Positions 9,849-26,919 of a DNA stretch of 64,000 nt are shown here, in pieces. The stretch is taken from assembly GCF_001940525.2 (NCBI RefSeq), contig NZ_CP019438.1:124001-188000 (forward strand), in the 5' to 3' direction. Each line of letters begins with the position of its first letter. Within the stretch, counting starts at the first letter, position 1. The stretch is from Thioclava nitratireducens. GTDB lineage: Bacteria > Pseudomonadota > Alphaproteobacteria > Rhodobacterales > Rhodobacteraceae. Both the position numbers and the translations under genes were made by a program. The notes beneath the pieces are model-generated. The model saw only the letters and a list, made by a program, of their open reading frames with translations, was not told where the DNA came from and did not search any database.

Positions 9849-9874
9849 GTCTGGGCCAAGCCGGTAATCCAGCT

Positions 9875-10706: not shown

Positions 10707-11635
10707 CACCTTCCACGATCCTGCGCCGCCACGCGCTTGCCGCGCTTGCACGCGAGCGGACGATCGCGCTGGTGGCCGCGCTGTTCGCCGCGCTGGTGCT
10801 GGTCTCCGCCTATCTCGGCTGGTCCGCGACCTCGACGGTCGACGCGATTTATGCCAGCGCCACGCATTGGTTCGAAGCCAATGGCAAGCCGGTGCCGCCA
10901 AACCCGGTTACGCAAGGCTCGCCGCTGGCGCTGCTGCGCAACCTCACGATCTATATCAGCCTGATCGGCGCGTTTTCGGCCATCGTGATCGGCTACCGGA
11001 TGGTCGAGACCGACCGCCGGGCCGGCGTGCTGCCGCTGATCGGCGCGCGCCCGCTGGAGCGGCTCGATTACGCGCGAGGCAAGGTCTCGGCACTCGCTCT
11101 GGCCGTCGGCGGACTGGCCGCGCTTGCGGGCGTCGTGGGCGCCGCGACCCTCGTCATCCTGCCTTCGGTGCATCTCGCCGCAGGGGATTGGGCGCGGCTG
11201 GCTGCGTTCTTCTCTCTGGGCTGGCTCTACATGATGACCTTCGGGCTGATCGCGATCGGTGCTTCGGCGCGGGCGCGCAGCGAAACCGTGGGTCTGATGG
11301 TGCCGACGGTGGTCTGGCTGGTGCTGACCTTCGTCTGGCCTGCGCTGACCGGAAACATCCTGCCCACCGCTGCGATCAACCCGATCTCGGCGCTCGCACC
11401 CGCCCCGCAATCCGCGATCTTCGACCTCTCCGCAAACCTGCTCGGGCCGTTCTCGCTGGCCGAAGCCTACAAGTATCTCGGAGCGGAGCTGATGGGTTAC
11501 CTGCCCGACGGTCTGCCGCCGCGCGGTCCCGTGCCGCCGCTGGTCGTGATGATGCTCTTCGCTGCGGGCTCCGGCCTCTATGCGCTGCGTGGCTGCCTCA
11601 AGCTCGACATGACGAAGGGAGGCCCCGATGCCTGA
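10703..11635 (+). CDS. ABC-2 type transporter permease
   Basis: A 310-residue membrane protein with about six helices. After the first helix comes a long extracytoplasmic segment (residues about 35-75), then a cytoplasmic coupling stretch ETDRRAGVLPLIGARPLER that matches the gate/coupling loop of ABC-2 permeases. It overlaps the ATPase stop by 4 bp and the next permease by 8 bp, so translation is coupled. The longer upstream frame is not used because it lies inside the ATPase coding region. Confidence 0.85.
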   Translation: MTPSTILRRHALAALARERTIALVAALFAALVLVSAYLGWSATSTVDAIYASATHWFEANGKPVPPNPVTQGSPLALLRNLTIYISLIGAFSAIVIGYRMVETDRRAGVLPLIGARPLERLDYARGKVSALALAVGGLAALAGVVGAATLVILPSVHLAAGDWARLAAFFSLGWLYMMTFGLIAIGASARARSETVGLMVPTVVWLVLTFVWPALTGNILPTAAINPISALAPAPQSAIFDLSANLLGPFSLAEAYKYLGAELMGYLPDGLPPRGPVPPLVVMMLFAAGSGLYALRGCLKLDMTKGGPDA

Positions 11636-12611
11636 TCTCTCCGCAATCTCCACCGTTGCGCTCAAGGACGCGCGGATCGCGCTGCGCGACCGTTTCCTGC
11701 TCGCCGCGACGCTGGCGCTCGTCGCCGCCGCGCTGATCTCGCTGATCACCGGAACGGTCGCGATGCGCACCGATGTCGCCACCTACATGGCCGCGAAACA
11801 GCAGCTGCTGGCGCTCGGCAAAAGCCTCGGTTCGATCGCGGCGCCCGAGTTCTATCCGCTGAAGCTGATGCGCGGCACGATCGAGCAGATCGAGATCATG
11901 GGCGCCGTGATCGCGCTGATCGCGGGCTACCGCGCCGCCGTCGAAGAGCGCGGACGCCAGACGTTGGCGCTGATCCTGACGCGGCCGCTCTCGAACTGGC
12001 AGTTCCTCGCCGCGAAGCTGCTGGGCGGGGCCGGGCTGATGGGGGCGGCGCTGGCTTGCGTCTTCGCGCTCTGCGCAGTGGTGCTCGCGCTCGGTTCGGG
12101 CATTGGGATCGGGGCGAATGACCTCTTGCGCCTTGCGATAACCTGGGGGGCTTCGACGCTCTATCTCAGCGCGATCTTTGCGGTGGGCTTCGGGCTGAGC
12201 CTCTGGCTGAAAAGCCCGGCGAGCGGGCTGCTCTACGCCTTCGCGCTGTGGCTGCTGGTGGTCCTCGTCGCGCCGCAGATCGGCGACACGATGGACCCCG
12301 ATAACCAGGTCGCAGGCGGCGTCTTCGCGCAGCTTTCGATCCCGAAAGCCGAGCAGACCAAGATCAAGCAGGGCTTCGCCACCTACGAAACCATCCGCAA
12401 CGGGATCGAGGTCTCGTCCGTGACCAAGCATTACGAGCGCTTCACCTTCGCGGTGCTCGGAATCAAGGACATCTACACCGGCAAAGCGCTCGGGCCGATC
12501 TGGGCCGACAAGAAGGGCGATGCCTGGTTCCTCATTCTCTTCACCCTCGGTCTCGGCGGGCTCGTCCTGCTGCGTCCGATCCGTGCCGACCGTCTGACCA
12601 AGGAGACCTGA
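11628..12611 (+). CDS. ABC-2 type transporter permease
   Basis: This 327-residue permease is built like its partner: first helix at about 20-45, a periplasmic region, then an ERGRQTLALILTRPLSN coupling segment and five more helices. A large soluble insert (about residues 225-290) before the last helix is typical of NosY-like ABC-2 subunits. The gene overlaps the previous permease by 8 bp and is followed 2 bp later by the secreted calcium-repeat protein, so all four belong to one operon. The two permeases probably form a heterodimeric channel. Confidence 0.85.
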   Translation: MPDLSAISTVALKDARIALRDRFLLAATLALVAAALISLITGTVAMRTDVATYMAAKQQLLALGKSLGSIAAPEFYPLKLMRGTIEQIEIMGAVIALIAGYRAAVEERGRQTLALILTRPLSNWQFLAAKLLGGAGLMGAALACVFALCAVVLALGSGIGIGANDLLRLAITWGASTLYLSAIFAVGFGLSLWLKSPASGLLYAFALWLLVVLVAPQIGDTMDPDNQVAGGVFAQLSIPKAEQTKIKQGFATYETIRNGIEVSSVTKHYERFTFAVLGIKDIYTGKALGPIWADKKGDAWFLILFTLGLGGLVLLRPIRADRLTKET

Positions 12612-12613
12612 CG

Positions 12614-13225
12614 ATGAACAAGACCCTTTCCACCCTCACCGTGCTGCTGATGCTCGCCGCTGGCGGCGCCCAGGCCGCGCAGACCGATACCGACAAGGAT
12701 GGCGTGCCCGACATGGCCGAACCGCTGCTGCACACCGATCCGCAGAACCCCGATACCGATGGCGACGGGCAGAACGATTTGGCCGACAAGGACCCGGTGG
12801 TCGCGCAAAGCCCGATCCAGCCCGGGGGCACTGCCGCGCCGTTCCATATCGGAGAGCTGCTGGTCGAGAACAATGTCGATCCCGCGACCCATACGGACGC
12901 GCCCGATCACCTCGAGATCCAGCTGGTCAATGACAGTGCCAAGCCGCTGAGGGGCTTCACCCTCTTCTACACCATCACCGACGCCGATAGCGGCGCGAAG
13001 GAGGCCTATATCCTGCACCCCGACGTGACCGTTCCCGCCAATGGCTCGGCCCGCATCCATGTCGATGACAGCGGCAAGCCGGGGCATCTGCGGGCGAACC
13101 CGAACTCGATCTACACCACAGCGCAATCCGCGAAACAGGTCGAGGTGAGCCTGCAGCTTCCGGGCACTGCGGCGGTGACGCAGGGTGTCAAGAAAGACGC
13201 CGGCGGCGCCGAGCAGGCGGATTGA
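12614..13225 (+). CDS. Secreted protein with thrombospondin type-3-like calcium repeats
   Basis: A 203-residue protein with a clear signal peptide (LTVLLMLAAGGAQAAQ) and two calcium-type repeats, DTDKDGVPDMAEPLLHTDP and DTDGDGQNDLADKDP, where spaced aspartates bind calcium. The rest (residues about 65-190) looks like a beta-rich domain that could carry or bind an envelope polymer. It follows the second permease by 2 bp, so it may be an accessory or cargo of the exporter. No enzymatic motif is visible. Confidence 0.75.
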   Translation: MNKTLSTLTVLLMLAAGGAQAAQTDTDKDGVPDMAEPLLHTDPQNPDTDGDGQNDLADKDPVVAQSPIQPGGTAAPFHIGELLVENNVDPATHTDAPDHLEIQLVNDSAKPLRGFTLFYTITDADSGAKEAYILHPDVTVPANGSARIHVDDSGKPGHLRANPNSIYTTAQSAKQVEVSLQLPGTAAVTQGVKKDAGGAEQAD

Positions 13226-13242
13226 TCGCCAACCATCGCAGA

Positions 13243-13264
13243 GCGGCCCCGCATCCGGGGCCGC
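13243..13264 (+). other. Strong intergenic hairpin
   Basis: GCGGCCCC / GGGGCCGC forms an 8-bp perfect GC-only stem around a 6-base loop in the short gap before the phosphatase gene. No T-run follows, so it is not a classical terminator. It could shape mRNA stability or partial read-through between the two genes. Confidence 0.5.
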
Positions 13265-13280
13265 AACGGAGACAGAGGCG

Positions 13281-13832
13281 ATGAAACTTCGCGAAATCGC
13301 GCGGCTCGTGGGCACCGTATTGGTCGGGACGCTCGCGGCGCTGGTGCTCTATTTCGGGTATTTGCAGGTGACCGGAAATTTCCACACCGTGGTGGCTGGA
13401 GAGTTCTATCGTTCGAACCAACCGACCGCCGCGAGGTTGAAGGCCTACAAGAAAAAGGACGGCATACGATCGGTCCTGAACCTGCGCGGAGCGCATCCGG
13501 GACAGGCGTGGTACGATCAGGAGAAGGCTGCGGCGAAACGGCTTGGATTGGAATTGATCGACTTCAAGATGTCCGACCATCAAACCCTCAGCCCGATCCG
13601 CCTCGCGGCGCTCGAAGGGGCGATGGCGCGGGCGCCCAAGCCCGTTCTGGTTCACTGCAAGGCGGGGGCGGATCGCACCGGGCTCGCTGCCGCGCTTTAC
13701 CTTTATCATCAGAAGAAGCGTTCGCCTTCCGAGGCGGGTTGGCAGCTCTCGTTTCTCTACGGCCATATAGGCGTGCCGTGGCTCTCGAGAGCCTGGCCGA
13801 TGGACCAGACATGGATGGCGGCCAACAGTTGA
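13281..13832 (+). CDS. Membrane-anchored dual-specificity/tyrosine phosphatase
   Basis: This 183-residue protein has an N-terminal transmembrane anchor (LVGTVLVGTLAALVLYFGYL) and a phosphatase domain with the active-site loop HCKAGADRTG, where the Cys is the nucleophile and the Arg binds phosphate. The segment FYRSNQPTAARL is typical of the cyclin-phosphatase-like/DSP family. It lies last in the envelope operon after a hairpin and is read from a start 17 bp past that hairpin. Such enzymes may act on lipid or protein phosphates at the membrane. A long alternative reading frame upstream is ignored because it crosses the hairpin. Confidence 0.88.
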   Translation: MKLREIARLVGTVLVGTLAALVLYFGYLQVTGNFHTVVAGEFYRSNQPTAARLKAYKKKDGIRSVLNLRGAHPGQAWYDQEKAAAKRLGLELIDFKMSDHQTLSPIRLAALEGAMARAPKPVLVHCKAGADRTGLAAALYLYHQKKRSPSEAGWQLSFLYGHIGVPWLSRAWPMDQTWMAANS

Positions 13833-14002
13833 AGGATTTCGAACCTCTTTGCCGCAGGTTTTGCTATGGCGAAAGCTGTGCCCGAGTTCAAGTCGTAGTC
13901 AAGAATCTCCGAAACCCGGAGAAAGTTGCAAAAAACACGCGTTGCAGGCGAGTATGTCGTGTTTGTGCTCGTGAGCGGACATTCAAAGCGAGCGCAGCGA
14001 AG

Positions 14003-15564
14003 GTCAGCTCTGGGCCGATTCTGTGGAAAAACACCCGTTCGCGATTGCAGAAATTGGAAGCTTTCGTGATGTGCGACTGCCTTTCCTATAAGGCTTTTCG
14101 CGGTTGCTGCGGTGCGGGAAGGATCTTTGCCAGCTTCCTGAGGTTCTGGGCGGTTGCGGCGAGGAGAAATTCGTCATTTGCGCCGCACGGGCCACGTAGT
14201 CGGAGGCGTCCGAGGCCAAGGATGCGTTTGAGGTGCGCGAAGAGCATCTCGACCTTCTTCCGGAGCTTCATCGAGACCTCGTATTGCCTGGTCTTTGCGA
14301 TGTCCCTGGCGACCTGGCGGGCGTCTTCGTGTTCCTCGCGGGTGATGGACCGGAAGTCCATGTTCGGGCAGCAGTGCTGCTTCGAAGGGCAGGCCTGACA
14401 GATGTGCTTCAAGCCGCGGTATTTGGCGACGCCCTTGCCGGTCGGTCCTCTGTTCGGGTCGGAATAGTTCCGGCGGAACTGCTTCAGCGTCTGGCCCTCT
14501 GGGCAGATGTATTGATTGTTTTCGGCGTCCCACTCGAAGTCGGCCCGAGTCCAGGTGCCATCGTTACGGCCCGACTTGTCCAAGACGGGGATGTGCGGCG
14601 CGATCTTGCGCTCGACCAGCCAACCCAGCATCGGCCCGGTGCCATAGGCGGTATCCGCGATCAGGCGTTCGGGATGCAAATCGAACTTGGCCTTAACCCG
14701 GTCCAGCATGGTGCGTGTCGAGCCGACCTCCGCCTGCCGGATCGACCGCGTCGCCTCGACATCCACAATGACGCCGTGATCCGTGTCGATCAGGTAGTTG
14801 TCTGAATAGCTAAAGAATGCCGGACCCTTGCGCGCTGCCGTCCACTGGCTGGCCGGGTCGGAATGCGAGGTGAACTTGGGCTGGACCTCGCTGGCGGCAC
14901 CGAAGGCGGCCTCGTCCAGCGTCTCAAGATACTCGCGAACGGCGCGGGGCGCATCCGTCGGATCGATTTGCGAGGCGTCCCACTCTTCCTTCGGCGTCGA
15001 GTTCTGCTTGTTCGCATCCGCCTCGATCAGGCTGGCATCGACCGCCATGCGCTGCCCGCTCACCAGGCCTTCCTCGATGCAGCGTGCGACCGTCATCTCG
15101 AACAGGTGGCGTAGCAGCTCGCTGTCACGAAACCGGCCATGGCGGTTCTTCGAAAAGGTGGAGTGATCCGGCACCCGGTCAGCAAGGTCGAGCCGGCAGA
15201 ACCAGCGATACGCCAAGTTCAGATGCACCTCTTCGCAGAGGCGCCGCTCGGACCGGATGCCGGAGCAATAGCCGACCAGGAGCATGCGGATCAGCAGTTC
15301 GGGGTCGACAGACGGACGGCCCGTGTGGCTGTAGAAAACCGCAAGATGAGCACGGATGCCGCTCAGATCGACGAACCGGTCGATGGATCGAAGTAGGTGA
15401 TCTTGCGGAACATGATCCTCCAGCGAAAACTCGTAGAACAGCGCTGGCTGAGCTTCCTGCTTCGGTCCCATCATCGCCAATCCTCCCACCTGATGTCGGA
15501 ATTGAATCAGCGCCACGTCCAGCAATCAAGCGCGAGTTTTTCAACGGAATACGCCCCTACCGAC
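14003..15564 (-). mobile_element. IS1182-family insertion sequence
   Basis: The single transposase gene is bracketed by imperfect inverted ends: the left end near 14003 contains GATTCTGTGGAAAAAC and the right end, read inward on the other strand from about 15564, contains TATTCCGTTGAAAAAC. The exact outer bases and any target duplication are uncertain. The element separates the envelope locus from the recombinase module. Confidence 0.7.
14086..15474 (-). CDS. IS1182-family transposase
   Basis: A 462-residue DDE transposase. The N-terminal region (YSHTGRPSVDPELLIRMLL, RSERRLCEEV) and the catalytic core (MAVDASLIEADANKQ, LIADTAYG, then a C-terminal KKVEMLFAHLKRILGL with the third acidic region) match the IS1182 family. 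A cysteine cluster (CPEGQ, CQACPSKQHCCP) near residue 350-390 is also typical. A longer frame starts at 15525, but the Met at 15474 opens the recognisable MMGPKQEAQPALFYEF start. The gene appears intact, so the element could be active. Confidence 0.88.
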   Translation of the reverse strand: MMGPKQEAQPALFYEFSLEDHVPQDHLLRSIDRFVDLSGIRAHLAVFYSHTGRPSVDPELLIRMLLVGYCSGIRSERRLCEEVHLNLAYRWFCRLDLADRVPDHSTFSKNRHGRFRDSELLRHLFEMTVARCIEEGLVSGQRMAVDASLIEADANKQNSTPKEEWDASQIDPTDAPRAVREYLETLDEAAFGAASEVQPKFTSHSDPASQWTAARKGPAFFSYSDNYLIDTDHGVIVDVEATRSIRQAEVGSTRTMLDRVKAKFDLHPERLIADTAYGTGPMLGWLVERKIAPHIPVLDKSGRNDGTWTRADFEWDAENNQYICPEGQTLKQFRRNYSDPNRGPTGKGVAKYRGLKHICQACPSKQHCCPNMDFRSITREEHEDARQVARDIAKTRQYEVSMKLRKKVEMLFAHLKRILGLGRLRLRGPCGANDEFLLAATAQNLRKLAKILPAPQQPRKAL

Positions 15565-15578
15565 ATCTCCTACCCCTT

Positions 15579-16157
15579 TTAGGGGTCTTTGAACGTCTTC
15601 ACGACCTCTTCGAGCGTTTTTTTCGCAGTCGCGAGCTGCGAAGCCTTGATCTTGAGCTTCTCGCGCTCCGTGAGCAAGCTTCCGATGCGTTTCTGCGCTT
15701 TCGCGAGCTGTTCGGTAAGTTGCTCCGCCTTCTTGATTGACGCCTCGAGGTCATCCTCCAACGCAGCGATGCGCTTGTCGCGATATTCCATGGAGGCGTT
15801 CGCCGCATTGAGCGAGCTTTCGGTGGTCTTTTGCATGTCCCGATGTGCTCGGGCGAGGAGCATATGAACATGTGAAGTCAACTCCTCCATACCGGGCTGG
15901 AGTTCCTCGACCATCCCGGAAGGCAAAGCGGCGAGCAGCCGTCTTTTCTCTGCTTCCTTTTCGCGTTCGAGAACCCGCTGAATGACCTTTTTGACAGCTT
16001 CCGCGCTCGGGGCTTTGGCGATGCCCGCCGCCTTGAGCCAGTCACAAACGTTTTTCCCGTTCACGTCCTGACCATTGAAACGCAGATCGGCGATCGCATC
16101 GGCGATGTCGTCATCGGTGTAGTTCGGTTTGCGCCCTGCAGTGCTTTTTTCAGTCAT
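15579..16157 (-). CDS. KfrA-like DNA-binding coiled-coil protein
   Basis: This 192-residue protein has an N-terminal helical DNA-binding region (residues about 10-60, YTDDDIADAIADLRF, EAVKKVIQRVLERE) and a long C-terminal coiled coil (about 110-188, rich in A/E/K/L heptads). This is the KfrA layout, plasmid proteins that bind operators through the N-terminus and form filaments through the coil. KfrA proteins are usually autoregulated, and a nested palindrome lies just upstream of its start (16181-16217). Downstream of two recombinases it takes the place held by TnpC in Tn554-type elements. Confidence 0.65.
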   Translation of the reverse strand: MTEKSTAGRKPNYTDDDIADAIADLRFNGQDVNGKNVCDWLKAAGIAKAPSAEAVKKVIQRVLEREKEAEKRRLLAALPSGMVEELQPGMEELTSHVHMLLARAHRDMQKTTESSLNAANASMEYRDKRIAALEDDLEASIKKAEQLTEQLAKAQKRIGSLLTEREKLKIKASQLATAKKTLEEVVKTFKDP

Positions 16158-16180
16158 GTAACCTCGGTCTTCATGTAATC

Positions 16181-16217
16181 ATTCGTTGATTCATTTGATG
16201 AATGACATTCAACGAAT
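16181..16217. promoter_or_regulatory. Nested palindrome upstream of the KfrA-like gene
   Basis: Outer arms ATTCGTTGA / TCAACGAAT (9 bp, perfect) enclose an inner palindrome ATTCAT-TTG-ATGAAT (6 bp, perfect). The site lies 24 bp upstream of the KfrA-like start, where an autoregulatory operator is expected. A recombination core site is an alternative because it also lies between the recombinases and the module's end. Confidence 0.6.
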
Positions 16218-16295
16218 AGCTGCGTGCGGCAGGCCTCATTGCCCGGCCTGACAGGGACATCGTCTCGGCCTGGAAATTCCAAAGCCGATTTTTCT

Positions 16296-16321
16296 GAAAA
16301 AGTTGGGCGGGCTTCGGCCCG
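16296..16321 (-). terminator. Possible terminator after recombinase 2
   Basis: On the minus strand CGGGC-CGAA-GCCCG forms a 5-bp stem with a CGAA tetraloop, followed after six bases by CTTTTTC. It lies about 115 bp after the recombinase 2 stop. The short stem and the spacer before the T-run make this only a moderate candidate. Confidence 0.4.
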
Positions 16322-16437
16322 ACGTCTCGCTCTGCCGCTGATCCGCTGCCACGCGCCAAAGACGCTTCCTTTACGCAGCTATCGAAATGCTAAGTGGGTT
16401 AGCACGCTATTCCGGAATTGTGGACGAAGCGCTCCTA

Positions 16438-17883
16438 CTACGCTTCGTCGTATGCCGTTGCTCGCGCGACCTTCTTCTCAAGGTCGGCCATCGTGGACTG
16501 CCATTCGCGCACCGACGCCGTGACGCGGAAATCCGTGAGATAAGCGCGCTGCGAGTAGCGGTTCGAGTGACCGAGGAGCGCCTGCGCTGCCCATGCCGCA
16601 TCCGGCTCTTCCGTGCGGATCAGGTTCGTGACCAAGGTCCGGATCAGGTGGCCCGAAATCCCAAATTCCTCTTTCAAAAGGGCGCTCGGGTGGTAGGTGC
16701 CATACCCTTCCTCCCTAAGACTGAGCAGGTTCATCCCATCCAATTCCGCCATGCGGTCCTTGAGCTGCCACGACGGACGATCGGCCAGCACATGCGCATC
16801 GAGAAGTCGGGCCGTGAATGGCCAGAGAGTACCCAGTTCCTTTTTGCGTCGTGTCTTTGCCTGTCGAAACGCCACTTCCCAACTGCCATCGGGCAACCGT
16901 TGGATCTCGCGACCAATCCGAAACCGTGACAGGTCGCCCTGTCGGTCCGACCCGTTGACCAGAAGCGCGAAGACCACGGACTTGCGCCTGAACCGTTCGG
17001 CTTGGGCACTGTCCCCTCGGCAAGACGTCGCGGCTTCAGAAAGTCGCGCGGCCCCATGCAGGATATCGGCGAGGTCAAACGTCTTGAGAAAACGTTTGAC
17101 CTTCGCGTGTTTGCCCTCCGGCTGATCCTCCGCTTCAGCTCGCAACTGCCCGCGGATATCCGCGAACGCTTCGGCGGCGGCCCGGTCGAAGAGCCGGCCG
17201 CGATATGCGAAACCTTCGATGCGTTCGAAATAGTCCGCGGCCGAGCGTGGCGTAATACCTCTATCGACGAGCAGATAGCGCAGGAATACCTCGGCGAGAT
17301 CGGGGCAGAAGGCGTCACCGAGCGCGATGCCGCGCCCGTTAGCCCAGATCCGGGCCGTCTCGCAGGTGCCGACGGCAGCGACGACCGACGCGCGCGACTT
17401 TTGCCGAAGCGGTTTGTAGACAGTCTCACCGCGTCGAACGACCCGGTCGAGAAGAGGGAGGGCCTCGCGCCAACGCGCGGGCCATTGCTCGGGTAGCGCC
17501 GCGATCCGGGTAGAGACCCGAGGCTTTTTCGGTTTGCTGCCGTAGGTCGAGTTCAACCAGCGATCCCAGTTCTTCGTCACGTCCCGGGCCGGGGCAAGCG
17601 ACACGGTGGGATCAAACCGTGTGAGGGCCGAGATCAGGGTCCGGTAGCTCGTCCGGCTGCTCGCCGCGGCCTCGAAGTCCTCGCGACTTGCTGTTTCTGG
17701 CGTCCTGCCCACCGCCGCGAGGGCGCCGTAGAAGCGCTCGAGCGCGGCGGGTGCGCCGCGCCCCTTGAGCGTGCCTTCAACAACTGCCTCCGCAACCGCG
17801 TGGGCGACAGGCCGGGGCACATTCTGCATTCGCGCAAGCAGCCGTGCGACCCGCTCGGCGCGCGAGAAAGGTTGATGAGCCAT
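16438..17883 (-). CDS. Tyrosine recombinase 2 of the mobile module
   Basis: A 481-residue integrase-family protein. The C-terminal catalytic part has a first Arg in GSDRQGDLSRF, a candidate Lys in RQAKTRRK, the H-x-x-R box HLIRT (H412/R415), the LLGHS motif (H439), and a nucleophile Tyr nine residues later (Y448). The N-terminal 300 residues are basic and helical and unlike lambda-type integrases. It follows recombinase 1 by 9 bp. The full catalytic set suggests activity, alone or with recombinase 1. Confidence 0.8.
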   Translation of the reverse strand: MAHQPFSRAERVARLLARMQNVPRPVAHAVAEAVVEGTLKGRGAPAALERFYGALAAVGRTPETASREDFEAAASSRTSYRTLISALTRFDPTVSLAPARDVTKNWDRWLNSTYGSKPKKPRVSTRIAALPEQWPARWREALPLLDRVVRRGETVYKPLRQKSRASVVAAVGTCETARIWANGRGIALGDAFCPDLAEVFLRYLLVDRGITPRSAADYFERIEGFAYRGRLFDRAAAEAFADIRGQLRAEAEDQPEGKHAKVKRFLKTFDLADILHGAARLSEAATSCRGDSAQAERFRRKSVVFALLVNGSDRQGDLSRFRIGREIQRLPDGSWEVAFRQAKTRRKKELGTLWPFTARLLDAHVLADRPSWQLKDRMAELDGMNLLSLREEGYGTYHPSALLKEEFGISGHLIRTLVTNLIRTEEPDAAWAAQALLGHSNRYSQRAYLTDFRVTASVREWQSTMADLEKKVARATAYDEA

Positions 17884-17892
17884 GAGGCCTCC

Positions 17893-19728
17893 TCAGGAAA
17901 GGTTGAGTGTCGGGTCGAGGCGCTGGATGACCTCGGCGAAGAGACGCGACGCTTCGCGTCCGGCTCCACGCGCGTAAAACGCCTGCACCGTATCGAGCTT
18001 GTCGCCGAGCAGGTCTGCGACGACGCCATAGGCGCCGGGGTTCTGTGCAATATAGAGCGTCGCGCCGACATGCCGCATCAGGTGCGGACTGAGGCCGATC
18101 ACTCCGATCCGCGACATCCCACGATTCCAAAACTTGTTGAATGTGCCCCGCGAGATTGCCTCACCGCTCTTGATGCCCGGGAACAGGTAGGGATTGAGCT
18201 CGGAATCTGTCCCGTGACGCGTGCACCACTTTTCGCGCCCTTCCTCGATCCAGAGCGCGAGCGTCTTCCACTGAACCGCCGGCACCTCGTGGAAAATGTC
18301 GCGATTGTTTTTCACACGCGTTCGGGCAATGTCGATCATCGCCAAGGCCCCCTTGCGACGCGGGAGGCAAAGCTCGGCTCCTTGCCCGCTTATTGTCAGC
18401 TCGTGGATGTTGCGCGTCCGCAGGGGGCGCGAGAGCTGAAGAGCCATCGCTGCCGAGGCCATCGCCAAATGAAGCGCCTCGGTCTGGGCATGCACCCCCA
18501 ATTTGTCCCACCCATCAAGCCCGCGCCGCGCTTCGCGTGCCAAAACGCGCGGACCTGTCAGGATGGCTCGAACCACCTCGGGGTTGTGATCCAGGAGCTT
18601 GAGAAACGCCGCGCGTTCTGCCGCCATCTCGTTTGCGTAGTCGCTGTTCACGGCGTCGGAAAATCGCAAATCAGCGATCGCATCGAGCACGTCGTCACCG
18701 AGGTCATTGCGCTTCGCGAGCGTATCGAGGGTAGCAAGCCAAGAGTTCGTCGAAGACGTCTCCTTGACCGTCTTGAGGGTTTTGCTTTGCTTCGTCCTCT
18801 CCGCGTATTTTGCGGTCGCCATTTTGACATTCTTGGAGGTCAGAAGGTCTTCGAGCTGAGCGACGCCAGGGGGCGGTGTGCGGTCCTCCCATGTGTGCCG
18901 GATCAGCCAGGACAGAGCCTGGCGGTGGTTTTTGCGTCTAAGCTCAGGGTTGCGGATCTTGCGCTTGTTCTTGCTCCGTCGCGGCAGCGGGTCTTCGCCG
19001 AGTTTGCCCCCGAAACGATCGCGCTGCGGCCGCTCCCCATTGATAGCCCGCTCGATCGCCGTTTCGCAGGATGCGACCAGAGACGCTGGTAGCGCCGTCC
19101 AGTCGAGCGGAGCGTCCCGTAGTCCCGGAAGGGACCCCACCGGCGATGTCGGGAGCAGGGCGGCGATTTCTTCATGCCGGTCCCTTTGGGTGATCATCTT
19201 GTCGAGGAGCCTGAACGAGCGACGGAAGGAAGCGGTCTTGTCCGCTGGAATACGCGAGAGCGCTTTGGCGGCCGCTTCGTTATCGAGCTCTGCGGGAAAA
19301 ACCTCCCCGACGCGCGCCCGCAGATTTGCGAGCGATACGTCTGCCATTCCGGGCAGCAGTTTTTTCCCATCGGGCCCCGGACGGTTCTGCACTCGCTTGG
19401 CGTAATCGATCAACTGGTCCCATGCGAGGCGCGCATCGGGAGCGACAGGCGCCTCTGCGGTCGCCTCCTGCGCTTTCCGGATCGCGGCGCTGATTTTTCC
19501 CGACCAGGTATGAAAAGCGCGCTCCGCCGCCTTCGGCGTCGCGGCCCGAAACTCCCCGGCCCAGACGATATGGCGGGCAATCTCGGTCCATGCGACGTCA
19601 TCTGCGGGAACCTGCTTGAGGGTTCGGCCGGTCAGCTTCTCGACGCGGCGAAACGCGGCGCCGTAAGCCTGTGCGGAGGACTCGGAATAGAGATTGGGCA
19701 GGGCGAGGTAGATATCGTTGAGAGTCAT
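17893..19728 (-). CDS. Tyrosine recombinase 1 of the mobile module
   Basis: This 611-residue protein has the tyrosine recombinase fold at its C-terminus: LSRPLRTRNIHEL (first Arg), a Lys/Arg region VKNNRDIFHEVP, the box HLMRH (H549, R552), LLGDKLDTVQAFY and a Tyr near residue 585. The usual His/Trp of the LGH motif is Asp here, which is notable. The protein is long for the family. Its N-terminal 330 residues are probably DNA-binding. It is translated just before recombinase 2 (9-bp gap), and both look like partners of one strand-exchange system. Confidence 0.75.
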   Translation of the reverse strand: MTLNDIYLALPNLYSESSAQAYGAAFRRVEKLTGRTLKQVPADDVAWTEIARHIVWAGEFRAATPKAAERAFHTWSGKISAAIRKAQEATAEAPVAPDARLAWDQLIDYAKRVQNRPGPDGKKLLPGMADVSLANLRARVGEVFPAELDNEAAAKALSRIPADKTASFRRSFRLLDKMITQRDRHEEIAALLPTSPVGSLPGLRDAPLDWTALPASLVASCETAIERAINGERPQRDRFGGKLGEDPLPRRSKNKRKIRNPELRRKNHRQALSWLIRHTWEDRTPPPGVAQLEDLLTSKNVKMATAKYAERTKQSKTLKTVKETSSTNSWLATLDTLAKRNDLGDDVLDAIADLRFSDAVNSDYANEMAAERAAFLKLLDHNPEVVRAILTGPRVLAREARRGLDGWDKLGVHAQTEALHLAMASAAMALQLSRPLRTRNIHELTISGQGAELCLPRRKGALAMIDIARTRVKNNRDIFHEVPAVQWKTLALWIEEGREKWCTRHGTDSELNPYLFPGIKSGEAISRGTFNKFWNRGMSRIGVIGLSPHLMRHVGATLYIAQNPGAYGVVADLLGDKLDTVQAFYARGAGREASRLFAEVIQRLDPTLNLS

Positions 19729-19899
19729 TATTTCATCCTTGCTGGTAAGATTTCATCTGCTGAGTGGCGCGTTCATTCGGACCAAGATGAACGAGACGCT
19801 CACGCAGATTTGGCCCATTAAGTTCGGGGGGTGTTTGGTTCAAAGGGGTAGAAAACCCGTTCAAATTGCGGTTTTGCCGTTCAGGCGCAGTGGCGGCGA

Positions 19900-20295
19900 T
19901 CACAGCCATGAGCACAGCCAGCGATCGATCTCAGCGGCCACAAAACGGACGCGTGTGCCGATCCTGCGGCAGGGCAGGGTGCCCTCTCGCGCCTTGGTGA
20001 TGAGCGTCGATGGCCGGTAGGGCACGCGCATTGCCGCCTGCTCGGAGGTTAGCAAGCGCTGTCGATAGGCGGCTTCCATTCCCGCTGGCGGCTGCCCGCC
20101 CTCAAACGCCCAGATTGTCTCCCAAGAATAGCCCCTGCGCCGGCCCTCGCGGACCGGGAGCAGGAGGCCGTCTTTCTCGGCGCGCCAGAGTGTCGCATCG
20201 CTCCCTGCCTGCCAGCGGCGAAGCAGGTCGGCGGCACTCAGGAGGGTTGAGGCGTGATCGACGTCAGAGGTCTTGGAGCGTTTCGGCATCGGCAT
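19900..20295 (-). CDS. Small protein with HTH (excisionase/MerR-like) domains
   Basis: A 131-residue protein with two repeated helix-turn-helix-like halves. The first (LLSAADLLRRWQAGSDATLWR) resembles an AlpA/excisionase motif, and the second (LLTSEQAAMRVPYRPSTLI, then RFVAAEIDRWL) is a clear HTH_17-type Xis domain. Xis-type proteins direct integrase toward excision or regulate the module. Its start overlaps the end of the primase gene by 32 bp, so they are one operon. No other function is visible. Confidence 0.65.
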   Translation of the reverse strand: MPMPKRSKTSDVDHASTLLSAADLLRRWQAGSDATLWRAEKDGLLLPVREGRRRGYSWETIWAFEGGQPPAGMEAAYRQRLLTSEQAAMRVPYRPSTLITKAREGTLPCRRIGTRVRFVAAEIDRWLCSWL

Positions 20296-21784
20296 TTCCT
20301 TTCGTTGGAAAGGAGAGAGGGAAATCGCCGTTCAAATCCAAATTTTCGCGTTCAGAATTTTCAGGGGGTGGCAGAGTAGGGGGTGCGGGTGCCGGGCTGG
20401 GGGCTTTTCGTGCTGCTGGGAAATTCCAGCTGCGATCCTGCCCTATGGTTCCCCCTGTCCCGGGCACGGACCTGTCCGGACCTTGTGCCACAAGGCGAGG
20501 CGGAAGCGTTCCGTCCTTCTTGCGCTTGTAGTAGGTGGTTCGGCTCAGGCCGTATTCTTTCCAGATCTCAAGGCGCGAGGCGTTGTTCTCGGCAAGATAT
20601 TCCGCTCGCGTTTGCGCCCCATTCCGCTCGCGCCGTTTCCGTTCGGCCTCTGCCTTTCGACGCTTTCGTTCTTGAGCAGGCACGATCTGGCGCAGGCCGA
20701 GGGCGCGTGCGTCCTCTCCTGAAATTCCGAGCCGTTCCGCGAGTGTCGCGCCGGAATAGTGATAGCGGCCATCTTTGAGCGGGGTCGTGCTAGGCGCCCG
20801 GGCGGCTTGTTTTTCCGCGCTGCGAATGATCGCCGCGACTTCCTGCGGGGGGAGATCAGGTGTCGCGACCTGAGCCATCTCGTCGATTTTCCGCGCGAGT
20901 TCAGTCTCTCGTGGATCATGCGTCAGAGAAGTCGCGAAGATATGCAGCCAGGTGTTCCGCAGGCCCTCCGGGAGCCGCCCGCCGTGCGACATCCGGATAG
21001 CTTCGAGGTCATCGCGGATCTGACGAAAACGTGCCGCCGGGGGAAGGCCGAAAGGCATCGCGCGTGCGGGAGCGGTCGGGCGCCGCTTCGCGCGTTTTTC
21101 TGCGCGAAGCACTTGCAGTTGAGCGCGGGTGGGCAGGCCCGCAGCTTGGAAGATCTCGTCGGAGAGGGCATCGAAGTGGTGCCGTGCGGCACTTCCGCCG
21201 GAGACGCGCACCCGCCGTCCGGACTTCTCATTGATACTGCCCGGGAGCCGAAAGATGCGCGCCGCTTCCTGGCTCGAGCGATCGACACCGAACCTTGCGA
21301 ACACATCCCCGAGTGCGCGCATCGTCGATTGCCAGCGAGGCAAAACTTGGGGCGGCATTTCATTGATAAGCCAGATCAGGGCAGAGCCGCGTCCACTCTG
21401 CAGCACCACGGAGGGCGCGGGAAGGTCGGAGGCACAGACGTGGCGCAGGATCGCCGCTTCGACCTCGTCCCGGCTCTGCCCGCGCCATTCATCCGTCATG
21501 TGCCAGTCGAGATCTACGTAGACCGCGTTCAGAGCCTTGAGCTGGTCGAGGTTTCGCCGTCGTGAAAATCGGTTCATAGACAGATATGCTCGACCATCGA
21601 GCAATCCAGATAAGCCTAAACTCAGGTCACTGGCGGCCAGGCATCGGTTGTGCGCCCTGGAACCTTCGAACCAAAGGATCGCAGGCCGACCGTGAGAATG
21701 GCGCGGGTGGAGGAGCTCAACATAAGCTTCCGCAGAGAGATCTTCGATCGAGGGCGGGGTGTGGAGTGTGGCGAGGCTTTGCAT
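20264..21784 (-). CDS. RepB/AEP-like replicative primase
   Basis: This 506-residue protein fits plasmid-type archaeo-eukaryotic primases. Residue 91-93 forms the metal-binding D-x-D (VYVDLDWHM). Residues 128-138 give LQSGRGSALIW, matching the S-G-x-G-x-x-x-W motif. Residues 168-185 hold DRSSQEAARIFRLPGSIN, the nucleotide-binding ARIxRLPGSxN pattern. The C-terminal third is charged and includes a possible HTH stretch (GLSRTTYYKRKKDG). Such primases start replication of plasmids and some integrative elements. It is the first gene of the module. Confidence 0.72.
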   Translation of the reverse strand: MQSLATLHTPPSIEDLSAEAYVELLHPRHSHGRPAILWFEGSRAHNRCLAASDLSLGLSGLLDGRAYLSMNRFSRRRNLDQLKALNAVYVDLDWHMTDEWRGQSRDEVEAAILRHVCASDLPAPSVVLQSGRGSALIWLINEMPPQVLPRWQSTMRALGDVFARFGVDRSSQEAARIFRLPGSINEKSGRRVRVSGGSAARHHFDALSDEIFQAAGLPTRAQLQVLRAEKRAKRRPTAPARAMPFGLPPAARFRQIRDDLEAIRMSHGGRLPEGLRNTWLHIFATSLTHDPRETELARKIDEMAQVATPDLPPQEVAAIIRSAEKQAARAPSTTPLKDGRYHYSGATLAERLGISGEDARALGLRQIVPAQERKRRKAEAERKRRERNGAQTRAEYLAENNASRLEIWKEYGLSRTTYYKRKKDGTLPPRLVAQGPDRSVPGTGGTIGQDRSWNFPAARKAPSPAPAPPTLPPPENSERENLDLNGDFPLSFPTKGNADAETLQDL

Positions 21785-21830
21785 CGACCGGACATGGATC
21801 GGTTGATGCGGCGCGGAAGCGATTTGCTGG

Positions 21831-21972
21831 CATCAACAATCGGGGGGAGAATTCCTACCAACCAATTCGACGACGAGAGCGGATCGTGAAAGGGTTCAAA
21901 TCGCCCGCGCACTTGCAGCGCTTCGCCTCGATCCACGGCCGGTCGCCGCGAGGTTCATGTGCAGCTGTCTGA
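21831..21972 (+). pseudogene. Relic of an IS6-family transposase C-terminus
   Basis: The reading frame INNRGENSYQPIRRRERIVK followed by GFKSPAHLQRFASIHG matches the end of IS6-family transposases (the conserved NNRAENSHQPTRRRE and FKSxxxxQRFLS segments) but has no upstream catalytic domain. It lies right beside the module's presumed right end and just upstream of the gntR operator. It is a leftover insertion, not a gene. Confidence 0.6.
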
Positions 21973-22011
21973 CGCGGTCATTGTCAAATCCGCACTTCGC
22001 TGAAATAGTGA

Positions 22012-22029
22012 GAGTTGTTGACAGTTTTC
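22012..22029. promoter_or_regulatory. GntR-type operator/-35 upstream of gntR
   Basis: GAGTTGTTGACAGTTTTC shares TGTTGACAGTTT with the site at 22782-22797 before the TTT genes. It contains TTGACA and lies just upstream of the GntR gene start, which suggests autoregulation. Confidence 0.5.
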
Positions 22030-22042
22030 AAAAGATGGCCCG

Positions 22043-22744
22043 ATGACCCGGAAATCCGAACCTGCCCGCTATATTTCTTCGGTCGAGAAGATCAATCAAA
22101 GGCGCGCGCAGACCTTGGCGTCTATTGCCTCCGAGGCGATCCGCGAGATGATCATCGAGGGACATCTGCGGTCGGGCGACCGGATCAATGAGAGCCATCT
22201 TGCGGATCGGTTGGGAATCAGCCGGGGGCCGGTGCGCGAAGCCTGCCGGAGCCTCGAGCAAGCGGGGCTGCTTTACAGCACTACGAACAAGGGGGCGTTC
22301 GTCCGCGAGCTTTCCGAGGAAGAGGCGCGCTACCTCTATGAGTTGCGTGGGGCGCTGACCGGCCTCGCCGGCAGGCTCATCGCGCTGCGTGGGACGGATG
22401 CTGCGATCGCCGATCTGCGCAAGCGGGTCGAGAAGATGGACCGCGCGGTGAAAGACGACGATGCCGCAGGCTATTTCAAGCTCAACCTCGAGTTCCACGA
22501 CGCGCTGATTGCCGCCGCTCAAAATCCTGCACTGGAAAGCCGTTATCGCGAAATCGTCGACCAGCTGCACCTCATGCGTCGGCGCGGCCTCGTCGATGCC
22601 CATAACATCCAGGTCTCGAACGAAGAGCACCAGCACATCCTCGATGCGCTCGAAGCGCGCGATCCCGATCTGGCGGAGCGCCGGATGCGCGAGCATGTCG
22701 AGGGCGGTTTCTCGCGTCTTCAACAAAGCCTTCACACGGCGTAA
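22043..22744 (+). CDS. GntR/FCD-family regulator of the TTT operon
   Basis: A 233-residue regulator. Residues about 20-85 form the winged helix (DRINESHLADRLGISRGPVREACRSLEQ). Residues about 95-225 are an all-helical FCD sensor domain with its metal ligands (NLEFHDALIAAA, EEHQHILDAL, REHVEGG). Gene order, shared operator sequence and divergence from no other gene point to control of the adjacent transporter genes. FCD proteins typically sense an organic acid, here probably the transported substrate. The relic IS lies directly upstream. Confidence 0.9.
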   Translation: MTRKSEPARYISSVEKINQRRAQTLASIASEAIREMIIEGHLRSGDRINESHLADRLGISRGPVREACRSLEQAGLLYSTTNKGAFVRELSEEEARYLYELRGALTGLAGRLIALRGTDAAIADLRKRVEKMDRAVKDDDAAGYFKLNLEFHDALIAAAQNPALESRYREIVDQLHLMRRRGLVDAHNIQVSNEEHQHILDALEARDPDLAERRMREHVEGGFSRLQQSLHTA

Positions 22745-22781
22745 CGGCGGGCCCTATGCGGTCTGCGAATTAACATTTCGA

Positions 22782-22797
22782 AAACTGTTGACAGTTT
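22782..22797. promoter_or_regulatory. Operator and -35 upstream of the TTT operon
   Basis: AAACTGTTGACAGTTT is a near-perfect palindrome (arms AACTGT and ACAGTT around TG). It contains TTGACA, so a bound regulator would block the promoter. It lies 50 bp before the TctC start and repeats the core of the site before gntR. Confidence 0.6.
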
Positions 22798-22846
22798 ACA
22801 GGTCATTAACCGATAGTCCTCTGAGAAACGATGAAGGGAGGAATTC

Positions 22847-23803
22847 ATGCGTGTTCTTGGAAAGCTCTGGGCCGGGGCGCTTGTCGTCGCCGCGTCTGCC
22901 ATGCCCGCACTTGCCGACGAGTATCCGTCGCAACCGATCGAGATCATCACTCACGCGTCTGCCGGTGGGGGAACCGACACGACTGCGCGCGCCTTGGCCG
23001 CCGCGGCGGCAAAGCCGCTCGGCACACAGGTCTTCGTGAATATCAAGCAAGGCGGCGGCGGTGCCGTGGCGATGGGCTATGCGAAGACCCAGCCCGAAGA
23101 CGGCTACCATCTGATGGCGATCACGCCGACCCATCTGATCACGATGGCCCGTGGCCGCGCCCCGGTTTCGATCGATGACGTGAAAGGTGTCGTGCGGACC
23201 ACGGACGATCCGATCATCGTCACGGTGAATGCCGCCAGCGGCATCAAATCGATCGACGAGCTGATCGAGGCGTCCAAATCCTCGCCGATCAAATGGGGCG
23301 GGACGCAGGTCGGCGGTATCGATCATATCGCCGCGATGACCTTCGCCAACAAGACCGGCACCAAGGTCTCCTACGTCCCGTTCGACGGCGGTGGCGCGAT
23401 GGTCACCAACCTGATGGGCAAGAACATTCAGGCCGCCGGGCTGAACTACGGCGAGGCCGCCGACGGTATCGAAGCGGGCGACTTCGTGCCGCTCGCAATC
23501 ATGGCGCCGAAGCGGATGTCGAGCCTGCCCGACGTTCCGACGCTGGCCGAAGAAGGCTTCCCGGGTGTGAACTTCTCGACCGTGCGCGGCATCATCGCGC
23601 TGAAAGGCGTGCCGGATGACAGGCTCGCCGTGGCGGAGAAAGGCTTCATCGAAGGCATGAAGACCGATCAATACCAGAAATACCTGACGGGTATCGGTCT
23701 GGACGGCTCCAGCGTCGCGGGCTCCGAGGAATGGGATGCCCAGATCCGCGAGATGTATTCCAACATCGAAACGACGCTGAAATCGCTCGGCCTCGCGAAG
23801 TGA
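22847..23803 (+). CDS. tctC: TTT transporter substrate-binding protein (TctC)
   Basis: This 318-residue protein has a signal peptide (GALVVAASAMPALA) and the Bug/TctC fold: the beta-strand-glycine motif IIEITHASAGGGTD-like segment after residue 25, then GGGGAVAMGYAKTQPEDGY and SYVPFDGGGAMVTNLMG. Bug-type proteins bind carboxylates through backbone contacts in a cleft. It is first in the operon, about 50 bp after the operator, with tctB and tctA downstream. The substrate is unknown. The nearby dehydratase-like and hydroxyacid dehydrogenase genes suggest a tricarboxylate or hydroxy-acid. Confidence 0.92.
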   Translation: MRVLGKLWAGALVVAASAMPALADEYPSQPIEIITHASAGGGTDTTARALAAAAAKPLGTQVFVNIKQGGGGAVAMGYAKTQPEDGYHLMAITPTHLITMARGRAPVSIDDVKGVVRTTDDPIIVTVNAASGIKSIDELIEASKSSPIKWGGTQVGGIDHIAAMTFANKTGTKVSYVPFDGGGAMVTNLMGKNIQAAGLNYGEAADGIEAGDFVPLAIMAPKRMSSLPDVPTLAEEGFPGVNFSTVRGIIALKGVPDDRLAVAEKGFIEGMKTDQYQKYLTGIGLDGSSVAGSEEWDAQIREMYSNIETTLKSLGLAK

Positions 23804-23863
23804 CGACGGCTGCGCGGGCGGCCCTGATGCCGCCCGCGCGCGCTCCAGCATTACAGGTGAACC

Positions 23864-24325
23864 ATGTCACTCAGCCGCGATAGCGTGACGGGGATATTGC
23901 TCCTCGTGATCTGCGCTCTCCTTTGGTACGCGACGACGACTTTCGACAGTGATCCGATGGGCATGACCACAGGCATGCCCGCGACAGAGATGCCGCGCCT
24001 CGTCATCGGCGTCATCGCCATGCTCTCGCTCGCGCTGACGGTGCAGGGCCTGTCGCCGAAGAACAAGACCCGGTTTGGCGCGGTCGCGTGGCAGGTGCCG
24101 GTGACGGCGATCATCCTCGGTGCGATTGCGGTGCTGCTGTCCACCATCGGTCTGCCGCTCGGCTTCTTCATCGTCTGCACGGTGATCCCGATCCTCTGGG
24201 GCTCGCGCCGCTACGTGGCGATCGTGCTCTTCGCGCTCGCCACGCCGATCGCGATCTACGTCATCTTTCAACTGCTGCTCTCCGTGCGCCTGCCGCTCGG
24301 TCCGCTCGCCGCGCTCGGTCTTTAA
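23864..24325 (+). CDS. tctB: TTT transporter small membrane subunit (TctB)
   Basis: A 153-residue protein with four predicted membrane helices, as in TctB, and the family's loosely conserved sequence (TTFDSDPMG, ETFRLVIG-like after helix 1). TctB works as the small membrane partner of TctA. It follows tctC by 60 bp and precedes tctA by 11 bp, so the three make the full secondary transporter. A long antisense frame over it is a shadow. Confidence 0.85.
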   Translation: MSLSRDSVTGILLLVICALLWYATTTFDSDPMGMTTGMPATEMPRLVIGVIAMLSLALTVQGLSPKNKTRFGAVAWQVPVTAIILGAIAVLLSTIGLPLGFFIVCTVIPILWGSRRYVAIVLFALATPIAIYVIFQLLLSVRLPLGPLAALGL

Positions 24326-24336
24326 GGACACCCGAT

Positions 24337-25845
24337 ATGGATATTCTTGGTGGTTTGCTCACGATCCTGCAGCCCGCGACGCTGATGCTGATCGTCTTCG
24401 GCACGATCGCGGGCGTGCTCGTCGGTGCCCTGCCGGGGCTGTCGAGCTCGATGGCGGTGGCGCTTCTGCTGCCGTTCACGATCTATCTCGATCCGATCCC
24501 GGCGATCGCGATGCTGGCCTCGCTTTATTGTGCGGGCACCTTCGGCGGCTCGATCACGGCGATCCTGATCAACGCGCCCGGTGCGCCGCCGGCCGCCGCG
24601 ACCGCGTTCGACGGCTATCCGCTGGCGCGCAAGGGGCAGGCGGGCCGCGCGCTTGGAATGGCGGCGGTGGCCAGCGTCATCGGCGGGATCTTCTCGCTGA
24701 TCGTTCTGATCCTAGCCGCGCCGCTTCTGGCGACGGTCGCCTATAAATTCGGTCCGCCGGAATATTTCGCGCTGACCGTGTTCGGCCTTTCGATGCTCGC
24801 CTCGATCAGCGGCTCCTCGGCGATCCGCAACCTGATCGGGGGTGCGTTCGGTGTGCTGCTTTCGACCGTGGGTGTCGATCTTCTGACGGGGGTCGAGCGG
24901 TTCACGTTCAATGTCCCCGAGCTTTACGAGGGCATCAATTTCATCCCGGTGCTGATCGGCCTGTTTGCGATGGCGGAGCTGCTCAATCAGGCGGGCGCGA
25001 AAGCGAAGAAACTGCAACGCATCGCGGTGGGGCGGATCGCTCTGCCCTCGCGCGAGGATTTCCGCGCCTGCTGGAAGACCATCCTACGCTCGAGCGGGTT
25101 GGGCACCTTCATCGGCATCCTGCCCGCCGAAGGGAGCACGATGGCCGCGATGATCGGCTATAACGAAGCCAAGCGCTGGTCGCCCAATGGCAAGAATTTC
25201 GGCGAGGGCGAGATCGAGGGCGTCGCCGGTCCCGAAGCCGCCAACAACGCCGCGACGGGCGGGGCGATGGTGCCGACGCTGGCACTCGGTATCCCCGGCT
25301 CCGCGACCGCTGCCGTGATCCTTGGCGGGTTGCAGATCCAGGGGCTGCGTCCGGGCCCGTACCTGTTCCAGAACCAGCCGGATCTGCTTTACGCGATCTT
25401 CTTCTCGATGCTGATCGCGAATGTCGTCTTCCTGATCTTCGGTCTCGCGGGGGCGCGCTATTTCTCGCGGATTTCGATGATCCCGCGCGAGTTCCTCTGG
25501 CCCGGCGTCTTCTGCCTCTGCGTGGTCGGTGCCTATGGCGGGGCGCAGTCGATGGTGGATGTCTACATCATGCTGATTTCCGGTCTGGTCGGCTTCTTCC
25601 TCAATCGCGCCGGGTTCTCCTCTGCGCCGATCATCATGGGGCTCGTGCTGGGGCACCTCGTCGAAAGCTCGCTCGGGCAATCGATGATCCTGTTCGATCA
25701 GGACGCGACCGGCTTCCTGACGCGCCCGATCGCGCTGCTGTTCTTCGCGCTCGCGCTTCTGAGCGTGCTGTCGACGCCGCTGGGGCGGTTCATCTCGGCC
25801 AAGCGCCGCGCCAAGGTCGACCGGCTGGCGCACGGGAACGAGTGA
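24337..25845 (+). CDS. tctA: TTT transporter large membrane subunit (TctA)
   Basis: This 502-residue protein is a typical TctA: the family motif GALPGLSSSMAVALLLPFT near residue 30, the GFSPxxA-type loop region, and the second repeat LGIPGSATAAVILGGLQIQGLRPGP-like segment around residue 320. About eleven helices are predicted. It forms the substrate translocator with TctB. The preferred start is 24337, 11 bp after tctB, rather than the far upstream alternative that runs over tctB. It ends 7 bp before the AbrB-family permease gene. Confidence 0.93.
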   Translation: MDILGGLLTILQPATLMLIVFGTIAGVLVGALPGLSSSMAVALLLPFTIYLDPIPAIAMLASLYCAGTFGGSITAILINAPGAPPAAATAFDGYPLARKGQAGRALGMAAVASVIGGIFSLIVLILAAPLLATVAYKFGPPEYFALTVFGLSMLASISGSSAIRNLIGGAFGVLLSTVGVDLLTGVERFTFNVPELYEGINFIPVLIGLFAMAELLNQAGAKAKKLQRIAVGRIALPSREDFRACWKTILRSSGLGTFIGILPAEGSTMAAMIGYNEAKRWSPNGKNFGEGEIEGVAGPEAANNAATGGAMVPTLALGIPGSATAAVILGGLQIQGLRPGPYLFQNQPDLLYAIFFSMLIANVVFLIFGLAGARYFSRISMIPREFLWPGVFCLCVVGAYGGAQSMVDVYIMLISGLVGFFLNRAGFSSAPIIMGLVLGHLVESSLGQSMILFDQDATGFLTRPIALLFFALALLSVLSTPLGRFISAKRRAKVDRLAHGNE

Positions 25846-25852
25846 GGCGAAT

Positions 25853-26905: not shown

Positions 26906-26919
26906 ACAGGAGAATGACG

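Follow-up and report, generated by a model that had tools for sequence, protein, structure and literature searches.

A primase gene beside a tyrosine recombinase pair recurs in Thioclava and may belong to a mobile integrative unit

Introduction

What kind of genetic unit places a primase gene beside two tyrosine recombinase genes? The question is raised by a locus of Thioclava nitratireducens, located in a 64,000-nucleotide stretch of DNA (the window) that spans positions 124001-188000 of a 213,573-bp contig (C2) in a 4.24-Mb genome of three contigs. An earlier note, made from the sequence alone, had described five co-directional genes here, encoding an archaeo-eukaryotic primase (AEP), an excisionase-like helix-turn-helix (HTH) protein, two tyrosine recombinases and a 'KfrA-like' coiled-coil protein, and had proposed that they form an uncatalogued mobile element. 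The layout was confirmed as five minus-strand open reading frames (ORFs) of 506, 131, 611, 481 and 192 amino acids, encoding the primase, the HTH protein, tyrosine recombinase A (TR-A), tyrosine recombinase B (TR-B) and the coiled-coil protein, respectively. No catalogued element of this make-up was found in the openly licensed literature searched. There is no settled account of how elements with multiple tyrosine recombinases move. We favour the interpretation, with a probability of about 0.5, that these genes make up an integrative unit that is mobile and at least 6.3 kb long, or else the operon end of something larger. The unit would act in the manner of Tn554, strand-biased circularizing integrative elements (SEs) and GInts, and it includes a priming enzyme. 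The features of the locus are listed below.

21782-21824, minus strand: left edge with inverted repeat; edge at about 21821-21824, homology with pTElox9 beginning at 21824
20264-21784, minus strand: AEP primase with a predicted RepB'-like fold, 506 amino acids (Foldseek, D-L-D motif, dN/dS)
19900-20295, minus strand: HTH_17/excisionase-like protein, 131 amino acids (HTH_17, PHROG)
19729-19902, minus strand: conserved non-coding site between the HTH and TR-A genes, core 19785-19821 (alignment, pattern scan)
17893-19728, minus strand: TR-A, 611 amino acids (PHROG integrases, catalytic residues)
16438-17883, minus strand: TR-B, 481 amino acids (predicted Cre-like fold, invariant residues)
15579-16157, minus strand: coiled-coil protein, 192 amino acids (homologue beside a distant recombinase pair; weak Pfam coiled-coil matches)
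15552-15578, minus strand: limit of homology on the side of the coiled-coil gene (copy comparison; true right end not found)
13994-15562, minus strand: IS1182-family insertion, adjoining the unit but outside it (98.7% identical to the IS1182 copy of pTElox9)

Results

The gene order recurs and one edge is shared

Comparison of loci by tblastn with the five proteins identified 17 distinct loci encoding a TR-A of at least 44% identity. Six of these, all from Thioclava, have a TR-A at least 88% identical: the window, pLX02 (L032), pTElox9 (L033), a decayed second copy on pTElox9 (L058), JE_KL1 (L055) and T. indica (L056). Relatives of TR-A at 44% identity are also present on pTElox9 (L057) and in Thioclava sp. 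JE_KL1 (L059, the same locus as L080), while the remaining loci are L061 and those from Roseovarius indicus (L034), Sagittula (L076), Limimaricola (L077, L083), R. spongiae (L078), Maritimibacter (L079), Sediminimonas (L081) and Jannaschia (L082). The identical five-gene order occurs on pLX02, whose proteins are 92-98% identical to those of the window, and on pTElox9 (83-92%, primase tail 78%). T. indica displays the same order minus the coiled-coil gene, with identities of 74% (primase), 92% (HTH protein), 89% (TR-A) and 90% (TR-B). TR-B follows TR-A in all 17 loci (partial in L061), the two genes being separated by 9 bp in the window, where the primase and HTH ORFs overlap by 32 bp. In 16 of the 17 loci TR-A is preceded by the HTH gene, which is partial in L061 and lies 2.6 kb off in L034; L058 has lost it. 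Comparison with the pLX02, pTElox9 and T. indica copies (the last lacking the coiled-coil gene) showed that the five genes are under purifying selection, with ratios of non-synonymous to synonymous substitution (dN/dS) of 0.09-0.31, those of the primase being 0.26-0.31. The earlier note had allowed that the genes might be neighbours by chance, a view contradicted by the recurrence on pLX02 and pTElox9. Insertion sequences (IS) do surround the copies, and IS activity could have brought unrelated genes together; given the recurrent order, the purifying selection and the conserved site described below, such an origin is highly improbable.

Full-length TR-A of at least 89% identity was found in 4 of 16 Thioclava genomes, TR-A at 1e-20 or better in 8 of 198 genomes of the family (the source genome included in both counts), and within the class in 1 of 385, the window's own, with up to three candidates per genome scored. 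The best-matching named relatives of TR-A sit on Thioclava plasmids.

Alignment of the window with the two pTElox9 copies revealed around 90% identity inside the unit and chance-level similarity farther upstream than 41-50 bp from the primase start. As homology across differing surroundings ends some 40 bp upstream of this start codon (21821-21824), the primase is part of the shared unit. The T. indica alignment begins at the inverted repeat and extends inward only, giving a less sharp edge. This repeat (21782-21808) comprises 10-bp arms and a 7-bp spacer, and its predicted single-strand fold has a z score of -1.84 in the window and of -1.79, -0.10 and -5.12 in three other copies. The earlier note had seen neither ends nor a tRNA gene; indeed no tRNA was found within the 64-kb window, while one edge could be located by copy comparison.

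The recurrence of one gene order on two plasmids and, without the coiled-coil gene, in T. indica, together with a common edge in differing surroundings, argues for mobility. This view is supported by the presence of three recombinase-pair loci on the single plasmid pTElox9, and by the finding of the core genes not only on plasmids but also on megabase contigs of other genomes. It is also consistent with the location of relatives of the primase and of TR-B on equally long contigs within each of the strains Thioclava sp. NG1 and 15-R06ZXC-3. The DNA downstream of the operon varies among copies, as in GInts (PMC5385486).

Both recombinases have the presumed catalytic residues

TR-A matches PHROG integrases (5e-8), and the residues R, K, H, R and Y, which we take to be the catalytic set, are invariant or nearly so in 11 sequences. 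The position presumed to be H or W in such enzymes is D in 10 of the 11. At the limits used, no family of Pfam, NCBIfam or PHROGs matches TR-B. Its AlphaFold model (mean predicted local distance difference test score, pLDDT, 85.0; predicted template modelling score, pTM, 0.46) most closely matches Cre (2hoi, 5.8e-5), and R314, K343, H412, R415, H439 and Y448 are invariant in 33 sequences, consistent with the second recombinase of the earlier note. Three scans of viral contigs yielded no confirmed relative, nor did phage records for TR-B.

The 192-residue protein displays only weak coiled-coil matches in Pfam, and KfrA_N provides no support for its description as KfrA-like. A homologue lies beside a distant recombinase pair (26% identity, 4e-12, in a single comparison), and by analogy the protein may act as a partner of the recombinases, resembling TnpC or GinD in role alone. 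Among the distant loci, where TR-A is 22-30% identical, 17 distinct ones (two being short) were searched, of which L063, L064, L065, L066 and L089 carry, on the opposite strand, a homologue of the coiled-coil gene. A protein of up to around 775 amino acids is common to six of the nine distant loci mapped, is whole in L063, L064, L066 and L089, and lies in these between the coiled-coil gene and the recombinases. Four of five such proteins tested match ResIII, three of them above the cut-off. Loci L063, L064, L066 and L089, in which a distant recombinase pair is combined with a divergently oriented coiled-coil gene and a helicase-like protein of about 750 amino acids, possibly represent a sister element type.

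A conserved site accompanies TR-A

The HTH protein matches HTH_17 above the cut-off and PHROG excisionases, in keeping with its earlier description. The 174 bp between its gene and that of TR-A differ at 5 positions from pTElox9 (L033; Jukes-Cantor distance 0.029) and at 18 from T. indica (0.111), compared with synonymous divergence (dS) for TR-A of 0.29 and 0.44, respectively. This region contains inverted repeats and a repeated TGAAC, which occurs five times in the window's 174 bp, counting both strands; none of 5000 single-base shuffles reached five, for a motif picked post hoc. Alignment of ten copies revealed invariant blocks, from which a pattern of 21 fixed positions, allowing up to four mismatches, was derived and scanned against the window and 158 fetched loci, with overlapping loci counted once. 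There is one match per locus in 16 of the 17, some 57-75 bp before TR-A (no mismatch in ten loci, one in four, two in L034 and four in L061; the region is lost in L058). The sole other match, at four mismatches, is in L111, and the distant loci gave none. Matches in the ten source loci are by construction, and L032, L033, L057 and L083 are close to those, leaving L034 and L061 as the independent tests. As about 2.5 kb separate the HTH gene from the site in L034, the site stays with TR-A. Predicted single-strand folds of the site are strong in L079 and L082 (z -3.95 and -4.37), those of the window (z -2.08) and L076 (z -1.36) being weaker. An RNA leader is not claimed: RNAalifold proposed eight pairs, one with changes on both sides, and the Rfam match (RF01089) was sub-threshold at 22.7 bits against 45 (E 0.12).

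In the loci compared, the older conserved core is the succession HTH gene, cis site, TR-A and TR-B, which is found in other Rhodobacterales genera without the primase. The main rival explanation is a plasmid maintenance module. TR-A and TR-B would then act on the intact site as Cre does on lox or XerCD on dif, resolving plasmid multimers, with the primase and coiled-coil protein aiding plasmid replication and stability. A real argument in its favour is that 16 of the 17 loci have a single, intact site adjacent to the recombinase genes. The predicted Cre-like fold of TR-B, the many copies on plasmids and the relatives of the primase among plasmid replication proteins point the same way. However, one plasmid has three recombinase-pair loci, distant relatives reside on megabase contigs, the edge is shared despite differing surroundings, and pTElox9 and pLX02 carry their own repABC genes; we consider this explanation less likely, at about one chance in four.

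The primase has a predicted RepB'-like fold

The match of the primase to Pfam RepB_primase falls below the cut-off (E 0.014), and some PHROG replication proteins are matched as well. Its AlphaFold model (mean pLDDT 79.9, pTM 0.50) matches AEP primases in Foldseek, among them S-2L PrimPol (6zp9, 1.4e-7) and RepB' (3h20, 4.7e-7), and D91-L92-D93 is invariant among 17 aligned relatives. Judged by the predicted fold and the acidic D-x-D motif, the protein is an AEP primase, as the earlier note had proposed. It would share this fold with RSF1010 RepB' and plasmid RepB-like primases, although identity is about 15% over the aligned part and the primase here is tied to a recombinase pair. Relatives outside the unit are 54-60% identical in Thioclava and Acidimangrovimonas and 38-53% in other Rhodobacterales; at 1e-8, matches occur in 13 of 295 genomes of the family, the source genome included. 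No notable tandem iteron array was detected beside the unit, only short two-copy repeats, in scans of which one covered the primase gene in part.

Several of these relatives (L110-L116) sit in Rhodobacterales islands with a RepB-like primase and, in part, a KfrA_N protein, a MobA/MobL relaxase and an integrase; the islands may constitute a separate family of integrative and mobilizable elements (IMEs). In six loci, a total of ten neighbour proteins were tested. MobA_MobL was identified in L111, L112 and L113, KfrA_N in L113 and L114 (below the cut-off in L111) and Phage_integrase in L110 and L113 (below the cut-off in L116); a second L112 protein had no family match. Because some relatives occupy islands with a relaxase, a KfrA_N protein or an integrase, the primase was probably acquired by the unit. 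The same neighbourhoods would suit an IME relative, with the primase and coiled-coil gene derived from an IME-type replication region and the relaxase in cargo not delimited here. The primases are 40-50% identical and KfrA_N-type proteins are nearby, whereas the islands have a MobA/MobL relaxase and, where seen, integrate with one ordinary integrase in place of the recombinase pair. Furthermore, family scans of the five proteins identified no relaxase among them, and pLX02 and pTElox9 are typed as non-mobilizable, making an IME origin rather improbable.

The unit resembles Tn554, SEs and GInts but is assigned to none

Tn554 and related elements carry tnpA-tnpB-tnpC, as described in PMC3414803 and PMC10214605. 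Tn554 inserts at a fixed att554-like target with a 6-bp footprint, for which no empty site was found here as a counterpart. The likeness drawn by the earlier note is apt, in that both have two tyrosine recombinases, one of them long, and a small partner protein, all co-directional, but the unit described here adds the HTH gene, the cis site and the primase. TR-A aligns with the 611-residue recombinase of the Rhodococcus pREL1 pair over the catalytic part only (E 1.7e-7). TR-B matches this same recombinase (2.4e-5) and not its 341-residue partner (E 0.09), so that gene-for-gene kinship with that Tn554-related pair does not emerge from these comparisons. GInts contain ginABCD, with GinD and the three recombinase-like proteins GinA, GinB and GinC in one operon, as set out in PMC5385486. 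An operon at one end, with cargo beginning at the last operon gene, would be common to both: in the unit the left edge adjoins the first gene and differing DNA follows the last, with no right end found. Toxin-antitoxin (TA) genes near some copies are also shared, but the unit has two recombinases rather than three and the HTH gene and primase are extra. The imperfect direct repeats of around 10-17 nucleotides that flank GInts have no convincing counterpart here, where no empty site was found for comparison. One survey reports no ginC-ginD blocks in Alphaproteobacteria (PMC10214605), while the original GInt paper reports gin homologues in this class (PMC5385486). SEs carry intA-tfp-intB-srap, as given in PMC10214605. 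One long and one shorter recombinase and a four-gene style core are common to both, but the unit has no Tfp-like or third recombinase-fold gene between the recombinases, and again has the HTH gene and primase in addition. Whereas SEs have imperfect terminal inverted repeats of 13-19 bp and a 6-bp footprint, inverted copies of the left end were seen here only within ordinary genes. RIT elements, with three adjacent tyrosine recombinases, differ in number. In the way it would operate, the unit comes closest to Tn554, SEs and GInts; since the SE and GInt gene sets are lacking and Tn554 kinship is unproven, it is assigned to none.

In the integrative unit that we favour, TR-A and TR-B would jointly perform strand exchange, steered by the excisionase-like HTH protein and the coiled-coil protein, and the conserved site ahead of TR-A would host the assembly of a recombination or control complex. 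The AEP primase, probably gained within the Thioclava lineage, would supply primers on a form that is excised or partly single-stranded and thereby help to copy it. A more specific proposal is a tyrosine-recombinase transposon whose own AEP primase starts DNA synthesis on a circle arising from one-strand exchange; assembly or priming would take place either at the conserved site ahead of TR-A or at the left-edge inverted repeat. A copy-out route, for which priming is required, is the one favoured by the SE authors, who know of no prokaryotic enzyme that clears a recombinase-linked end (PMC10214605). The self-priming proposal is consistent with the observations, but we regard it as doubtful. 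If true, it would answer how copy-out elements of the SE, Tn554 and GInt style prime while the recombinase is still linked to the DNA end. The combination of recombinase pair, primase and cis site, with a helicase-like protein near some distant relatives, opens the priming step to genetic test. It also places this style of element in Rhodobacterales plasmids and chromosomes, with a precise search pattern.

Several observations weigh against mobility as proposed here. The primase gene is present in all six loci with TR-A at least 88% identical but in none of the 11 at 44-48%, and two of the six primases are incomplete, as L058 has a truncated gene and L055 a remnant of 69 codons; in L033 the C-terminal tail lies in a different frame. 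The coiled-coil gene is present in five of the six, being absent from T. indica and incomplete in L055 and L058, and is likewise missing from the 11. The absences are weakened by short flanks, as L080 and L081 begin about 2 kb before the HTH gene and L077 stops about 1 kb after TR-B. As both genes are missing from these 11 loci, and the coiled-coil gene also from T. indica, they appear dispensable for the core, and on this distribution the five-gene set is the Thioclava-lineage form of a wider module. Conversely, the recombinase pair was found near none of nine fetched loci with outside primases, L118 giving only short, weak matches. Because integrated copies keep the site before TR-A whole, this is not an attachment (att) site that integration splits. 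Neither a search for the left end in direct and inverted orientation nor a comparison of three plasmids revealed a right end, and no insertion site, empty site (by flank searches) or circular form was found. Finally, IS are dense around the copies, and homologous or IS-driven recombination could also create a shared edge.

Flanking and neighbouring DNA

The window and pLX02 have in common a 13.9-kb block (15552-29461, 94.9% identity) that includes the GntR/Tct cluster beside the primase, so the two count as one context. In each of the two plasmids the block adjoins another IS, an arrangement that would fit a single past move of a larger piece. The earlier note placed IS on both sides of the genes; this is correct for the IS1182 copy, but the other side is the GntR/Tct gene cluster, the nearest IS-like match seen there (around 29796-30612) being similar to the IS6 transposase of pTElox9. 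Homology stops 20-30 bp past the coiled-coil gene, where IS1182 (window), IS110 (pLX02) or unique DNA (pTElox9) starts; as IS lie exactly there in two copies, this limit is not proof of an end. In T. indica, homology on that side stops at the end of TR-B.

Three candidate ends or att sites were rejected. A TCCATGTC-like core at about 13799-13816 lies within the 3' end of a phosphatase gene plainly homologous to chromosomal copies, an inverted 14/16 match at 8466-8481 is in the same chromosome-like stretch, and an inverted left-end match in L032 at 22250 is inside an annotated DUF955 gene. Positions 8276-13821 and 1464-3568 of the window are 98.5% and 89.6% identical, respectively, to the organism's own chromosome (C1, L140). 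In three other Thioclava chromosomes 583-3568 and 8276-13859 are contiguous, so that 3569-8275 is an insertion relative to these.

Defence or TA-type genes occur near several recombinase pairs: E1-like ThiF and a multiubiquitin protein on pLX02 (L032, 17645-20501), a CBASS cyclase and SAVED effector (L035, 16872-19968), AbiEii (L079, 8466-9356) and AbiE (L033, 7619-9594). No such gene lies by the window's copy and no link is claimed. In three genera a protein family is encoded convergently, directly after TR-B (L056, 5809-6648; L076, 13459-14802; L083, 13600-14700), and an NPPF motif seen by eye suggests that its members are DNA methyltransferases. PemK-like genes are located near some of the copies that have this family.

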